Below, piece by piece: positions 2,328 through 8,419 of a stretch of 26,693 bases of DNA. Made by a program: the position numbers and the translations under genes. The notes under the pieces are model-generated. The model worked only from the letters and a program-made list of their open reading frames with translations. It had not been told where the DNA came from and searched no databases. Position 1 is the stretch's first letter, and every line of letters begins with the position of its first letter. The DNA is taken from the NCBI GenBank assembly GCA_020425885.1, contig JAGQRA010000572.1, positions 1 through 26,693 of the forward strand, given 5' to 3'. This stretch comes from Planctomycetota bacterium. GTDB lineage: Bacteria > Planctomycetota > UBA1135 > UBA2386.

Positions 2328-4916
2328 TCAAAACACGCCGATCGTGAGCTGCAGGGCATTGGAGCTGCTGAGAAGTGCCCCGGCTGCGCCGAGCTCGAGC
2401 TGCAGCACCTGGTGGTACAAGTCGATGCCCACGAGCCCCAGATGCCGCGGAATGGGCAATTGGTAGAGCGCGGCTCCGCTGCTGTTCGGGCTGATCAGAG
2501 ACAATGCCTCGGCGCTGGCGAGCAAGAGGCAGCCTTGGCCGGCGAGCGGGGAGTAGACGCTGAGAGCGTGTCCGGGAGAAGTCAGACCGACCAGTATCGC
2601 CGCCAACCCGTTCGTCGACAGGCCAGTTGTAGAGGATGAAAATGTGCCGCCGATCCAAGGTGACGCGGCGCAGGTCAGCTCGATCGGCCCGAGCGAACCC
2701 GAGCATGTCGTGGGAATGGATACCGATTCGGCCGGACAAGTGGCACGGAGGATTGCAAGCCCGCCAGCACCAATTGCGGATGCCGAGAATGGAGTGCCAG
2801 CGAAGGAAAACAGGCCGCCAACGACAAGTTCGCCCTGCTCCGTGAACGAGAGTGAGTAGACATGTTCGTTCACTCCCCAATCGATCCCTGACCAAGATTG
2901 CCCGTCGAACCTCGCGATGTTTACAGCACTGGTTCCTGCAAGGCGGAAGTCACCGCCAATGACGATGTCGCCATTTGGCAAGGCCGCCATCGCCGCTATT
3001 CGGACATAGGGTCCTGGGGAGCCAACTGGAGTCCACATGGTACCGTCCCATCGGGCAATGGAATCAGCACTGACTCCTCCTGCGCTTGTGAACGTGCCAC
3101 CAGCGATCAGTCCCCCGCCCGGTAGGGCAAGGAGAGCTCTAACCTCTGCACCTCCTATTCCTTGACCGACTTGTTGCCACCCGACTCCGTTCCACTTGGC
3201 AATGCAACTTGCTGGAATGCCGCCCGCAGTCGAAAAAGGTCCTCCAGCAACGATATCGCCATTGGGAAGTTGGCATAGATCGAAAACCTGCCCCAGTCCA
3301 TAGCCGCCCATGCCCGAACCCATCGCCTGCCAGGACGATCCATCCCACTTCGCCACGTTGTTCGCCGTGACGGAGCCAGCGTTGGGGAAAAACCCTCCAG
3401 CGTAGAGTTCGCCGCCTGTCCCCACAAGCAGGCAGAGTACGACGTAGGACCCGGGTCCTGTCATCCCACTTCCCATAGGATGCCATGATCCCCCATCCCA
3501 CCGCGCGATGTTCATGGCGCTCACTCCACCTGCGGATGAGAAACTGCCGCCAACGACGATGTCGCCGCCTGGCAGCATCACGGCGGAATAGACCGGACCA
3601 TCAGTACCCGATCCGAGCGCTGACCAGTGCGCACCATCCCACACGGCTACGTGCGCCGCATGGATATCTCCAATGGTGGTGAACCCGCCGCCTGCGATAA
3701 ACCCGCCGCCTGCGCGGGCCGCGATGGCGTAAACGTACGAATCGGTTCCGTCACCTATGGACGACCACGCAGTTCCGTCCCACATCGCGACATTGCGCGC
3801 ATGAATCCCGCCGACCCTACCGAAGGAGCCAGCGACGAGCATTCGCCCCAACGGCAGCAAACACAGTGAGTACACGCGTTGCCCACCCGTGCCCGTCGAG
3901 AGTGAGACCCAAGTTGATCCATCCCACGTTGCGACGCAGCTGGGAAACCCGGCAGCGTTGAAGGACCCTCCTACCACCAGATCGCCTGCCTGGGTGATCT
4001 TGACATCGTATACGGTACCAGTCGGGCCCGTAGAGCCGAACGCACTCCACGTAGCACCATCCCAGCGCGCAATGCCATACGCGGATCCTGTGCCAGCAGT
4101 AGTGAAGTTGCCGCCAGCGACAACATCTCCGTTCGGAAGTTCCGCGAGAGCCGTAACGAAGCCAGGGGAAACGCCCTGCGCAAAGGCGTGCCAAGCCGCT
4201 CCATCCCATCGTGCGATGTTGCGGGCGGCTATTCCTCCAGCGGACGAAAAGGTCCCACCCACGATGATATCGCCGCTCGAATGTGCCAGCAACGAGTAGC
4301 CAAAGCCAGCCAGGCCGGATCCCAGTGGATGCCACATCGATCCGTCCCATCTGGCAATCCCACTGCAGTTGACCCCTCCGGCCTGCGTAAACACTCCAGC
4401 GGCAACAAGATCTCCATTCGAAAGCGGACAAAGAGCAAAGACCCTTTCGTTCAGTCCAGCTCCCAGTGAGTGCCAGGAGGTGCCATCCCACATCGCGATA
4501 TTACTCGCCGGCACGCCTCCGGCGGTTTGGAAGTCGCCGCCAGCGATGAGGGCGCCATTCGCTAGCACCGCAAGAGCCTTCACATCAGTGTAGCCGCCGT
4601 CGGCAACGCCGCTGCCGAGGCGCGCCCAGATACCGGTTACCGGGTCGACGGCTACAATACCAAATGCACCCTCTGTTCCGGCGGCGTCAAAAGCTCCTCC
4701 AAGGACAATGAGTGGTTGCGCGGGACCTGCACCGTCGGGATCCCAGACCGTGCTGGCCACAACCCACTTGTCAGTCCCGCGAACGGCCGAGCCAGTGACC
4801 CACTCCGTTCCGCACTGCGACCGCCCCAACGCCGCCAGCACACATGGGAGGACGCTGCCCAAAACGGGGACGAACCTAGTCGTCCAGTGCGATGTGTGCG
4901 CAACGGCGGTGTTCAT
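2328..4916 (-). CDS. Secreted WDG-repeat (beta-propeller-like) protein
   Basis: This 862-residue protein starts with a signal-peptide-like segment (FVPVLGSVLPCVLAALG). The body, to about residue 720, consists of at least twelve repeats of roughly 44-48 residues. Each has a G-D-[IL]-[VI]-x-G-G-x-F-x-x-A-G-G core and ends in N-I-A-R-W-D-G-x-x-W. This pattern suggests one or more beta-propellers. Residues 722-862 form a different beta-rich tail ending in NALQLTIGVF. Similar tails recur, from memory, on many secreted planctomycete proteins and may be for sorting. The start at 4916 is supported by AGAGGAA a few bases upstream on the minus strand, although the frame stays open to 5162. The gene lies downstream of the glycoside hydrolase on the same strand, in lower-GC DNA. 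Its ligand is unknown; surface adhesion or scaffolding is a guess. Confidence 0.8.
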   Translation of the reverse strand: MNTAVAHTSHWTTRFVPVLGSVLPCVLAALGRSQCGTEWVTGSAVRGTDKWVVASTVWDPDGAGPAQPLIVLGGAFDAAGTEGAFGIVAVDPVTGIWARLGSGVADGGYTDVKALAVLANGALIAGGDFQTAGGVPASNIAMWDGTSWHSLGAGLNERVFALCPLSNGDLVAAGVFTQAGGVNCSGIARWDGSMWHPLGSGLAGFGYSLLAHSSGDIIVGGTFSSAGGIAARNIARWDGAAWHAFAQGVSPGFVTALAELPNGDVVAGGNFTTAGTGSAYGIARWDGATWSAFGSTGPTGTVYDVKITQAGDLVVGGSFNAAGFPSCVATWDGSTWVSLSTGTGGQRVYSLCLLPLGRMLVAGSFGRVGGIHARNVAMWDGTAWSSIGDGTDSYVYAIAARAGGGFIAGGGFTTIGDIHAAHVAVWDGAHWSALGSGTDGPVYSAVMLPGGDIVVGGSFSSAGGVSAMNIARWDGGSWHPMGSGMTGPGSYVVLCLLVGTGGELYAGGFFPNAGSVTANNVAKWDGSSWQAMGSGMGGYGLGQVFDLCQLPNGDIVAGGPFSTAGGIPASCIAKWNGVGWQQVGQGIGGAEVRALLALPGGGLIAGGTFTSAGGVSADSIARWDGTMWTPVGSPGPYVRIAAMAALPNGDIVIGGDFRLAGTSAVNIARFDGQSWSGIDWGVNEHVYSLSFTEQGELVVGGLFSFAGTPFSASAIGAGGLAILRATCPAESVSIPTTCSGSLGPIELTCAASPWIGGTFSSSTTGLSTNGLAAILVGLTSPGHALSVYSPLAGQGCLLLASAEALSLISPNSSGAALYQLPIPRHLGLVGIDLYHQVLQLELGAAGALLSSSNALQLTIGVF

Positions 4917-5210
4917 GCTTTCCTCTACGGACACGATGTGGACAGGATACCGCCCATGGGGCAATACGTCTCGGCGACCTGCGGCAAGCCGCATTGCGGT
5001 AGTGCGGAACGCCGGCAACCCTTGCCTTACTGTGCTTACGCGGTCCGCAAGGGCCAACAGTACCATGATCCCGTTCCATTTGCCCCCTTGCTCTTCGGCT
5101 GACTCCGGCCGCAACTCGGTTCCGGGGACCGGGATGCGGCAGCAGGCGATCTCCTCAGCCATTCTTCACAGCGGTGAGGAGTCCTCGATCGCCCATCGCC
5201 CCGACGAAAC
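4917..5210. other. Intergenic stretch between repeat protein and glycoside hydrolase
   Basis: About 294 bp separate the glycoside hydrolase stop from the chosen start of the repeat protein. The repeat-protein frame remains open back to 5162, but the extra residues look like no known domain and would bury the signal peptide. I see no RNA gene and no clear promoter. Confidence 0.5.
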
Positions 5211-6959
5211 TCATGGATACCATGTATTGAATGCACCTGCGGCCCAGAAGTTGTGCATCGTCAGGAACAACTGTTGATAATCGTACTGCATGGTAGCCCA
5301 AGGGATTACGCCCTGATGCAGAGCCGCCAGCACTTTGGCCTGGTGGAAAGCAGCGCTGGCCAGCGCCTGCGCAGTTGCCGAAGACGTCTGCAAAACATAC
5401 CCGTTAGGCACTGTGGCAGAAAGACGGTACCCGTACTCGGACTGGAGCGACCAAGTAGCCATGTTCTCGGCCGCCCAAAGCTCCTGGATAACCAAGGCTG
5501 GGTCCTGTAGCAACAGACCGCACCCATTAGGCCCACTGGTCAACGTGGCCGCATTAGCGACGAGCAGGCTATAATGACTGCGATTCGTCCCATCCCGCAG
5601 TCTTGGCGGTGGCTCGTACTCAGGATGGGCTGGGTCGTTGGTCGGCATTGAGGCATACGTATACGACAGACTCCAGGTCCTGAAGGACGCCATGGCTTGG
5701 ATCGTGGGCTGTATTGATGTAGTACCTCCAACGCCATAGTCGCGCACGAATACCGTTCTCGATGATCCGGACCCAGCATCGAACTGGGGGCCGTAGAAAA
5801 GGCCATCGCCGTAGTGCCAGGCGATGAAATTGACATTCCACCTCGTGCCGGTTGTCGGGTCGAAGTCGGGCCCTCCGATCTTGCCGACGTTTGCCGAGAA
5901 CAGGCAGAACCCTATCCCGTCACCGCCCGGGTTCCCCGTGTACGTTGACGGCACCTTGGTCGCGAGGTTGATTGCCTCCGGATACGTCTGCCCCCACCCG
6001 ACGAGGCCCGCCTCCATGGCAATTACCGGCTTGAAGGCGGTTAGGAGGAATCTAGCGTTATCGCACTTGCGCTCAATATCCCGTGGTCCGTTTCCATAGA
6101 AGTTGAAGCCAAGTACGTCGAGATTTGGGTTGCGCGCCAAATCGCGATGCGCTGTATCGCTGTAATTCCATACTGCCGGAGTCACCGCAGTCTGCGCTCT
6201 CCCGTCGTTGAATGCCTTTATCAGTTCCAGGGAAGTGGTGATCCAGTTGAACTGCTCCATATGGTTAGAGTCAAAGAGCGGCTCGTTCATGACGTCCCAA
6301 ACCAGCAGCGTACGCTGCGCGTAGTCCGTATCTTGTGGATGCTTCATGTAGGGATACGCTGCGTCAAGCATGTCCAGGATGAACGCTGCTTCGGGGTCGT
6401 CATCGACGAAGAAACCGCCACGGGAGTTGATGACTTCAGTTCCTGGAGACCTGATCCAATTGGCGTAGTTGTAGTCAGCGTAGTAGTCGGGCAGCCCCCC
6501 TGCCAAGGACGTGGGGTCGGGCTCAACGAAGTCGTTGTCCCACACAACCGGTTTTACATGCAGCCCCTCACTCTGACACAGTCCCAGGAAGTGCACGAAC
6601 TTGTTGTGCATTATCGTTGGCTGGAAACGCCAGTAGTGATATGAGAGCCAGACTCGAACAGTGTTGAAGCCGACGTCTCGGATTCGACTGAGTTGAAGCT
6701 GTATGTCAGTCGCCACTGGACCCGCCAACGCATAGGCCTTCCATGCTGCGGCTGGAGATGCAGTGTCATTCCAAATCAGGTTCGGGTTCGTCGCTCCGAC
6801 AAGGACCCCGATGTCCGTTGTCGAGTCCTTCGTGAAGGTTGGAATGAAGTTGACTCCGTGCACATTGCGATAGTCAGCATCGATGTCATCCATCGGATGT
6901 TGCGCAATCGCCATCGGAAGAAGAGCAAGATGCGCAAGAAGAATCTTGGAATGTCCCAT
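5211..6959 (-). CDS. Secreted glycoside hydrolase, clan GH-A (GH5/cellulase-like)
   Basis: This 582-residue protein has an N-terminal signal peptide (cleavage probably near AIAQ, residue 20). A TIM-barrel hydrolase domain of the cellulase superfamily follows. NTVRVWL (99-105) fits the strand with the conserved arginine. WDVMNEP (221-227) carries the Asn-Glu pair, with E226 as the likely acid/base. LGFNFYG (283-289) is a typical barrel strand, and E316 in PVIAMEAG is the likely nucleophile. Enzymes of this clan cut beta-linked polysaccharides such as glucans or mannans outside the cell; the substrate cannot be read from sequence. The region after about residue 430 is a helical extension without a recognised carbohydrate-binding module. 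It starts 72 bp after the sigma-factor stop on the same strand. No strong Shine-Dalgarno sequence precedes the ATG. Confidence 0.75.
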   Translation of the reverse strand: MGHSKILLAHLALLPMAIAQHPMDDIDADYRNVHGVNFIPTFTKDSTTDIGVLVGATNPNLIWNDTASPAAAWKAYALAGPVATDIQLQLSRIRDVGFNTVRVWLSYHYWRFQPTIMHNKFVHFLGLCQSEGLHVKPVVWDNDFVEPDPTSLAGGLPDYYADYNYANWIRSPGTEVINSRGGFFVDDDPEAAFILDMLDAAYPYMKHPQDTDYAQRTLLVWDVMNEPLFDSNHMEQFNWITTSLELIKAFNDGRAQTAVTPAVWNYSDTAHRDLARNPNLDVLGFNFYGNGPRDIERKCDNARFLLTAFKPVIAMEAGLVGWGQTYPEAINLATKVPSTYTGNPGGDGIGFCLFSANVGKIGGPDFDPTTGTRWNVNFIAWHYGDGLFYGPQFDAGSGSSRTVFVRDYGVGGTTSIQPTIQAMASFRTWSLSYTYASMPTNDPAHPEYEPPPRLRDGTNRSHYSLLVANAATLTSGPNGCGLLLQDPALVIQELWAAENMATWSLQSEYGYRLSATVPNGYVLQTSSATAQALASAAFHQAKVLAALHQGVIPWATMQYDYQQLFLTMHNFWAAGAFNTWYP

Positions 6960-7031: not shown

Positions 7032-7704
7032 TTATCGCTGCGTTGACTGCTTCCCGCACTTCTCAGGCAAGTTTCCTAGCTTCATGAGCACGCGCACAGC
7101 TTTGCGCAGCCGTCGGCGGGACTTCTCCACGGCCGTGACGGTGATGCCTCGCAACTTGGCAATCATGACATTCTTGACTGACCCGGTCCGCAGGATCGCT
7201 AGCGTTTCACGATCTCCGCGCCCAAGTATGCGGTCCAACTCTTCGACCAATTCGCTCGCTGCGCCTGTCGAGAACTCGGAACCCGACTTCGCGTGCGGAA
7301 GAGAGTCGAGGCGGAACCCGGTCAGCAACTTCCGACGACATCCGTTGCGTGCCCGCTGCGCTAGGAACGGAAGGACGAGTGCAACCGCCCAACGGCATGC
7401 TTCCGACGATGCATGGTCCGCCGGAAACCGGCCCCATGCCGACGCGATGATCTCGGCGGCGAGGTCTTCACGATCGTGTTCACTCCATACCCGCGCGCGG
7501 CACCGCGATTCGATTTTGAAACGGAGGTTCTCCCAGGAGCTGCCACCGACGTGGCTGTCGGCGGTCCCCCACGCTTCTTCGATGGCATCCGAATGCGAAC
7601 TGCGAACTGCGAACTGCGAACTGCGAACTGCGAACTGCGAACTGCGAACTGCGAACTGCGAACTGCGAACTGCGCGAAACGCACAACAGGCATTCGTCTT
7701 TCAT
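7032..7704 (-). CDS. ECF-type sigma factor, currently out of frame through a 7-bp repeat (putative phase-variable gene)
   Basis: An ATG at 7704 is preceded by GGAGGAACCG, an excellent ribosome binding site. After 10 codons and one further base-split codon the reading enters 11 copies of GTTCGCA, and in this frame ends after 74 residues. From 7592 to 7032 another frame is open for 186 codons and encodes a good ECF sigma factor. It has a region 2 helix (REDLAAEIIASAWGRF, then an R-rich end) and a region 4 helix-turn-helix (VKNVMIAKLRGITVTAVEKS). That frame has no ATG, GTG or TTG between the repeat and a TTG at 7328, which would leave only region 4. Ten or thirteen repeat units would join the ATG in frame and give 221 or 228 residues. 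It sits directly upstream of the glycoside hydrolase gene. A dead gene or a repeat-count assembly error are the alternatives. Confidence 0.75.
7594..7674. repeat. Heptanucleotide tandem repeat, 11.6 copies
   Basis: TGCGAAC is repeated perfectly eleven times from 7594 to 7670 and ends with a partial TGCG. Since seven is not a multiple of three, each gain or loss shifts the downstream frame. All frames of a strand encode the same cyclic heptapeptide without stops (SSQFAVR on the minus strand, CELRTAN on the plus strand), so the repeat can be read through at any copy number. It lies inside the sigma-factor gene, near its 5' end. Confidence 0.97.
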
Positions 7705-7707
7705 CGG

Positions 7708-7714
7708 TTCCTCC
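7708..7714 (-). promoter_or_regulatory. Ribosome binding site of the sigma-factor gene
   Basis: The minus strand reads GGAGGAA followed by CCG and ATG (7704). The core GGAGG lies 5 bases before the start. It decides the ATG at 7704 as the true start, upstream of the heptamer repeat. Confidence 0.75.
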
Positions 7715-7896: not shown

Positions 7897-7942
7897 CTCG
7901 GCAGCGGTCAGGCCGAGATGGTGCTGCTCGAGGCCGGCCTCG
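7897..7942 (+). repeat. 46-bp direct repeat, copy 2 (intergenic)
   Basis: This copy is identical to 875-920 in the transketolase gene and has the same orientation. Here it is outside any plausible gene, and neither flank resembles transketolase, so it is the displaced copy. Confidence 0.9.
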
Positions 7943-7975
7943 GCCGCCCTGACACCACCGGCAGGCAGGTCCCCG

Positions 7976-8419
7976 ATGGCGCGGGTCGAGCACTCGGGCT
8001 ACCCTGAAATCGTGCTCGATACCGTGCGCGCTGCCCTGGCCGAAGTGATCCGCGCCGGCCCGCCGGCGCGATTCTTTGTTCTCTTCGGATCCGCGGCGAC
8101 CGGACGGGCGCGCGCCGACAGCGACCTCGACCTGGCCTGGCTGCCGACCGACCGCGAGCTTCCGCTGTCCGAAGAGCTCGCTCTCCAGGCCGAGCTGACC
8201 CGCGCCGCCGGGCGCGAGGTAGACCTGGTCCGGCTCGATCACGCATCGACGTTGTGTCGACACGAGGTGGCGCGCGACGGGGTGCTGATCGCCGGAGATC
8301 GGGACGCCTTCATCCGCTTTCGGGCCGTCGCCGCGGCCGAGTTCCTCGACTTCGAACCGGCGCTGCGCGACGCCACGGCGCGCTATCGGCGCCGGCTCCT
8401 GAAGCAGGCGCGAACGTGA
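7976..8419 (+). CDS. MNT-type nucleotidyltransferase (antitoxin-like)
   Basis: This 147-residue protein has the minimal nucleotidyltransferase signature FGSAATGRARADSDLDL. The GS pair is at 38-39 and the metal-binding aspartates are D50 and D52. Proteins of this size pair with HepT in MNT-HepT toxin-antitoxin operons, where the known examples modify HepT by adding AMP groups. The next gene begins with a GTG overlapping this stop codon (GTGA), the usual operon layout, and its start looks like HepT. The MNT gene is intact, but its partner is not. The ATG at 7976 was chosen because upstream codons run into the 46-bp repeat and look non-coding. Confidence 0.8.
   Translation: MARVEHSGYPEIVLDTVRAALAEVIRAGPPARFFVLFGSAATGRARADSDLDLAWLPTDRELPLSEELALQAELTRAAGREVDLVRLDHASTLCRHEVARDGVLIAGDRDAFIRFRAVAAAEFLDFEPALRDATARYRRRLLKQART

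Follow-up and report, generated by a model that had tools for sequence, protein, structure and literature searches.

A heptanucleotide array between the start codon and the domain of an ECF-like sigma gene in a planctomycete: a candidate phase-variation locus

Described slippage switches and the present locus

Most familiar examples of slippage switching concern host-adapted pathogens, in which surface genes and DNA methyltransferases are the targets. For neuO, the gene of the K1-capsule O-acetyltransferase of Escherichia coli, the number of heptanucleotide units taken modulo three is described as setting the ON or OFF state, and 42 of 64 neuO-carrying genomes are given as phase-OFF (PMC13001214). 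The locus presented here likewise has a heptanucleotide array read modulo three; however, neuO encodes a surface-modifying enzyme with measured variation, whereas the target here is a sigma-like regulator known from one assembly. In mga of Group A Streptococcus, poly-C slippage in the coding region of the regulator is reported to switch other genes (PMC10330708). As in mga, slippage in the proposed switch would occur within the coding part of a transcriptional regulator gene; mga differs in that its tract is a homopolymer near the 3' part, the regulator is of another kind, the organism is a pathogen and the switch is proven. In Campylobacter jejuni, slippage in flgR together with phase variation of flgS is reported to make the control of the sigma-54 regulon phase-variable (PMC3930126). 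There, an activator and a kinase are switched rather than a sigma factor, and the flgR tracts are homopolymeric. An alternative sigma factor, as is proposed for the present locus, is found in Sigma-H of Staphylococcus aureus, and one of the mechanisms of its expression is a gene rearrangement. The account in PMC7911514 describes 'phase-variation-like' expression in a subpopulation and two expression mechanisms; unlike the present case, no coding-region repeat is named there.

Heptamers are described as the most abundant class of long repeats of 5–11 nt in most genomes, and the arrays of TAACTGA as mostly intergenic, just upstream of starts (PMC4679880). The array studied here differs in its placement, between a Shine-Dalgarno–ATG pair and a sigma frame. 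The terms 'sigma factor' and 'planctomycet' are absent from the main text of a 2025 review of phase variation (PMC11868660). Among the papers listed in our searches of the open-licence literature of PubMed Central we found neither a repeat-switched sigma factor nor a description of contingency loci in this free-living phylum, although such absence is not proof. In its manner of working the proposed switch resembles established ones; for its type of target gene and its type of host organism we found no precedent there. A switch on a sigma factor, if real, would act one level above the usual targets and leave the state of a whole regulon to chance, in a phylum of free-living bacteria.

Array, reading frames and encoded protein

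The window, i.e. the whole stretch of DNA analysed, comprises 26,693 nucleotides of a Planctomycetota contig. On its minus strand, a Shine-Dalgarno-like GGAGG (7710..7714) lies 5 nt ahead of an ATG at 7704, and 30 nt on from this ATG begin 11 perfect units of CGCAGTT (7674–7598). With a partial unit the whole period-7 run measures 81 nt (7674–7594), whereas 200 first-order Markov sequences of equal length gave no period-7 run longer than 18 nt. It is thus a perfect non-triplet tandem repeat positioned between a start codon and a protein domain. Beyond it lies the divergent ECF-like sigma frame with regions 2 and 4 (7592–7032, minus strand), which has no internal stop over its 186 codons, while the other two frames past the array stay open for 76 and 36 codons. 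The first sigma codon lies 112 nt from ATG 7704, that is 35+7n with n=11, so that the ATG and the sigma frame agree only at n = 1, 4, 7, 10, 13 and so on. In the assembled sequence they do not agree: the frame that opens at ATG 7704 runs through the array, where it encodes an RSSQFAV heptapeptide repeat, and stops after 74 codons (7480..7704). The sigma frame is closed upstream by a TGA at 7703–7701, and from there none of the codons ATG, GTG and TTG occurs in it until TTG 7328, its 89th codon. The initial annotation had reported the strong ribosome binding site, the 11 copies, the intact but out-of-frame sigma codons, the rule that 10 or 13 units give the full-length protein, the 74-residue product and the missing alternative start; its observation is confirmed. 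The count of 11 units rests on one assembly and may be wrong, but the design would remain.

The same annotation had seen recognisable regions 2 and 4, a claim that is weak for the window sequence by itself, which has no Pfam sigma match, and stronger once a profile with its relatives is used. The best family match of the window protein is NCBIfam TIGR02989, the Rhodopirellula/Verrucomicrobium ECF family (E=2e-4, residues 31–166). This is its nearest family, yet the score is 21.4 bits where the curated cut-off is 124.55. The protein falls below the curated Pfam and NCBIfam cut-offs for ECF sigma factors, and for this reason it is labelled only 'ECF-like'. All four rows of alignment A1, in which the window frame stands with relatives, match TIGR02989; the A1 profile matches SigL (positions 27–168, 4.5e-6), the profile built with relatives matches solved ECF sigmas, and two relatives (L085 and L182) exceed the Pfam cut-off for region 2. 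Judged from these alignments, the presence of sigma regions 2 and 4 in the window protein is convincing only together with the relatives. The GC contents of the sigma frame by codon position (0.63, 0.52, 0.71) are of coding type.

No close orthologue was found: a protein search with the sigma frame gave 261 candidates, none at E≤0.01, a pattern scan of genome contigs gave 44 matches, none of which was confirmed, and tblastn with the window sigma against plasmid sequences gave no match. The window also encodes a 1656-aa protein, presumably of the pyruvate:ferredoxin oxidoreductase type, whose best segment is 74–76% identical to the counterparts in three Planctomycetota MAGs (L058, L001, L070). 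In 80 loci around this protein, nine window genes including the sigma gene had no match at E≤0.01. The sequence comparisons are best read as pointing to a sigma gene that evolves fast and often sits in a tight operon.

The sigma gene is followed, after a gap of 72 nt, by the gene of a 582-aa secreted-type protein (5211..6959, minus strand), for which sequence searches of Pfam, NCBIfam and PDB gave no match, and then by that of a 944-aa beta-propeller-type protein (2328..5162, minus strand; Pfam Rax2, 2.3e-24, and DUF5122). The GC3 values of the three genes are 0.71, 0.66 and 0.65, respectively, against 0.84–0.96 in ten other window genes, which sets the three apart as a segment of distinct composition. 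The ten do not include 'RnfG', which was read in a wrong frame. Positions 875–926 and 7897–7948 hold the two copies of a 52-nt direct repeat (96% identity); it is the end of a transketolase-type gene, copied about 7 kb away to a place just upstream of the sigma gene. The low-GC segment between the two copies may be the mark of an insertion. Divergent from the sigma gene lies a gene for an MntA-type nucleotidyltransferase antitoxin (7976–8419, plus strand; NCBIfam NF047752, 4.5e-25), whose start at 7976 was chosen by us.

Repeats and neighbours of related genes

We used the A1 profile to search the class of the L070 genome (G003) for relatives, and further matches were then scanned for repeats. 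In total, 73 distinct ECF-like genes were scanned, the window included. The first 60 comprise the window and loci L081–L092 and L119–L199 (matches of at least 25 bits, duplicates removed), and the other 13 are the new genes among 29 extra loci. A repeat was counted if it was non-triplet and lay within -220 to +15 nt of the sigma2 start; the repeat thresholds were fixed with the arrays and the G10 tract already known.

Five of the 73 genes carry such a repeat. Besides the window, these are the ECF-like genes of genomes G150 (GGGCATC, 12.3 units) and G136 (CCCATTC, 3.4 units), both with the array between a Shine-Dalgarno–start pair and region 2, of G155 (octamer TCGGAGAC, 4.9 units, at the 5' place) and of G156 (locus L085; a G10 tract within the 5' coding part). 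No two of these four units are related, none is related to the window unit, and none is a multiple of three. Strong Shine-Dalgarno–start pairs stand ahead of the arrays in the window, G150 and G155. As assembled, the sigma frame of G150 agrees with GTG 5257, which follows AGGAGG, and disagrees with ATG 5250; that of G155 agrees with ATG 1327, that of G156 with a start codon, and that of G136 with GTG 4514 but not with ATG 4492. In the window and the four relatives alike, both wrong frames stop 5–76 codons from an anchor just past the repeat, and the sigma frame stays open. The repeat-bearing relatives share about 20–27% identity with the window frame and keep its key residues. The simplest reading of these sequences is that arrays arose several times in an N-terminal stretch that is probably dispensable for the sigma domain.

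Leaving out the window, the repeat is present in 4 of 72 genes and absent in 68. The 461,084 nt of unselected contigs of G150 and G136 contain four non-triplet repeats, none of period 7; this gives an expectation of about 0.15 among 72 genes, against the 4 observed (P about 2e-5; this and all other p-values here are descriptive, because the pattern was noticed ahead of counting). An equal expectation is obtained from the background of L001–L080, with 14 repeats in 1.57 Mb, a figure that omits two period-6 repeats as triplet-compatible. A tree of 64 rows places the five repeat-bearing genes together in a divergent group (support 96/89) that has 13 rows, DNA being available for 9, with repeats in 5 of 9 genes inside the group and 0 of 51 outside. 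In a quick tree of 77 rows, the G155 octamer gene leaves the group and the repeat-free L257 enters it; with the window omitted the counts are 3/8 vs 1/64 (p=0.0036), or 2/8 vs 1/64 for multi-base units only (p=0.03). A careful tree of the same 77 rows restores the first group with L257 outside, at a support of 17/78 (4/8 vs 0/64 with the window omitted, p=6.8e-5). All rows of the divergent group are long branches. The trees do not sustain a single robust repeat-bearing clade, as its support drops from 96/89 to 17/78 once genes are added and the G155 gene changes place in the quick tree. Since the grouping is not robust, the enrichment of ECF-like genes in 5' repeats has its footing in the count made without a tree; that the repeat-bearing genes form one lineage is likely, though these trees do not prove it.

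Among the divergent members, the DNA of L087, L090, L142 and L186 has no repeat at the thresholds used. Upstream of GTG 2001 in L090 (G134), a GGGAGG–ATG pair leads into CCTGTCA, repeated about 2.5 times, and then into a stop immediately ahead of the sigma gene; this stretch, below the repeat thresholds, is possibly what is left of a similar array. The nearest kin of the G136 protein, the predicted proteins P0005–P0008, start about 15 residues before a conserved tryptophan and, in their protein sequences, have no repeat-coded stretch. For the G150 protein (P0004) the gene caller placed the start after the real array, so P0005–P0008 may have arrays upstream as well.

The gene that follows the sigma gene varies from locus to locus. 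We took the most gene-like next ORF at each of seven loci. There is an overlap with the sigma stop in G150 (-7) and G156 (-4), and elsewhere the ORF follows at gaps of 4 nt (G134), 44 nt (G136), 45–72 nt (G142), 72 nt (window) and 109 nt (G155). By a reading of the N-termini, it starts like a secreted protein in four loci (window, G136, G156 and G134), and it is a small protein in the other three. Six small proteins of these three loci were aligned (A5), five of 113–128 residues and one of 107; the G155 members share only 10–14% identity with the first row, which makes a single small-protein family a guess. The model of one A5 member is a beta-sandwich (pLDDT 77.2), and its PDB matches are weak and mixed (best Foldseek E 0.007), so no function is assigned. 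One small protein matches PHROG 9522, a major tail protein (6.2e-8). Small beta-rich proteins after divergent sigmas, up to three in succession, are seen in L269 (5016–6089), L155 (3435–4541) and L120 (895–1281).

Homologues of the 582-aa protein are found in 8 of the 154 genomes of the class searched. A conserved pairing with the sigma gene was tried and rejected: the A3 sigma profile has no match in L103–L118, which hold ten such homologues with flanks. The homologue in G134 (L109, G134:C176) carries 8.4 units of TCACG (2636–2677) behind ATG 2683 and out of frame with the gene, and no in-frame start occurs from the array to a signal-peptide-like stretch. From its sequence this would be the same OFF-like state on another type of gene, and it is a candidate switch. 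In the other nine of the ten homologue loci, the repeat scan gave only another short repeat at the far end of L111.

Exact CGCAGTT arrays were found in one of 392 Planctomycetota genomes (G290) and in one viral contig; a 27-nt pattern of the array gave no match in the 288 genomes of the L002 phylum. In G290 long arrays lie between genes (L117 14–100 and the end of L118), with an AAAATCC heptamer array alongside. Descent of the window array from a shared CGCAGTT array was not retained, as by the listed ORFs both outside occurrences are intergenic.

A proposed slippage switch and its alternatives

We read the locus as a phase-variation (simple-sequence contingency) locus on a divergent ECF-like sigma gene, a reading that we hold to be probable, though well short of certain. 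Translation would begin at ATG 7704 and pass through the array. Slipped-strand mispairing at replication would add or remove 7-nt units and so shift the downstream frame. Numbers of units equal to 1 modulo 3 would give a sigma-like protein with an RSSQFAV-repeat N-terminus, other numbers a short dead product, and the assembled 11-unit copy would be an OFF state. In the ON state the sigma would drive transcription of its own unit, to which the 582-aa gene belongs at this locus, and perhaps act at other promoters; at loci where the sigma stop and the following start overlap, coupling would add a translational effect. That copy number changes by slippage in cells, that the protein acts as a sigma factor and that it has a regulon are what we infer.

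The reading draws on the anatomy of array and frames, the early stops in the wrong frames, the different units at one 5' place, the count of 4 in 72 against about 0.15 expected, the Shine-Dalgarno–start pairs and the pentamer array on the 582-aa homologue of G134. Counted against it are the single assembly, the 68 of 72 relatives free of repeats, the intergenic position of CGCAGTT in G290 and the viral contig, the non-robust clustering, the descriptive nature of the p-values and the score of the window sigma under the curated cut-offs. As to the switch interpretation of the initial annotation, the anatomy, the arithmetic and the unrelated 5' non-triplet repeats in 4 of 72 other ECF-like genes speak for it, and we regard it as partly supported. 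The recurrence of unrelated repeats at one 5' site of related sigma genes argues for selection. A wider and more tentative proposal, which we rate somewhat below an even chance, is that slippage switches have settled repeatedly on the divergent ECF-like sigma genes of planctomycetes. Three heptamers, an octamer and a poly-G tract would have been gained independently at one 5' site, and free-living cells would flip a sigma regulon and the coupled secreted proteins randomly rather than by signal.

The recurrence could also reflect neutral growth of repeats in the loosely constrained N-terminus of dispensable, fast-evolving sigma-like genes, the window copy being frameshifted and decaying. The strong divergence of the gene and the lack of close homologues in our searches fit this account, as do the low-GC3 segment in which it lies and the out-of-frame state of the window copy. 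We consider it unlikely, because the frame retains 186 open codons with coding-type GC, the key residues are kept despite the low identity, and in G150, G155 and G156 the repeat-bearing copies share their frame with a start codon.

The slippage switch would also lose its basis if the assembled number were an artefact of assembly or consensus, the true number being 10 or another in-frame value and fixed, which would leave the gene permanently ON and its N-terminus encoded by the repeat. In G290 a CGCAGTT array closes one contig and opens the next, with a flank common to both, which indicates that such arrays trouble assemblers, and there is one assembly of the window; but an 81-nt array is within ordinary read length, and unrelated arrays recur across other assemblies. 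An artefact thus seems improbable to us. That the array is a 5' untranslated spacer tuning transcription or initiation, with the sigma protein starting downstream at a non-standard codon, is very improbable: the unit is intergenic elsewhere and the called start of P0004 lies past its array, but the window frame has no ATG, GTG or TTG from the array to its 89th codon and the Shine-Dalgarno–start pairs sit ahead of the arrays.

Further short-unit arrays were seen in the loci collected. The viral contig (L113, IMGVR_UViG_3300035670_000610) has GTTCGCA arrays at 2063–2093 and 3834–3874, in two spacers between phage-like genes, and the second is followed by heptamers in the opposite orientation. 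A pentamer array of CAGAT is found in L083 (2127–2153), and an octamer array of GTGAATGA / GCTCCCTC in L015 (726–823).
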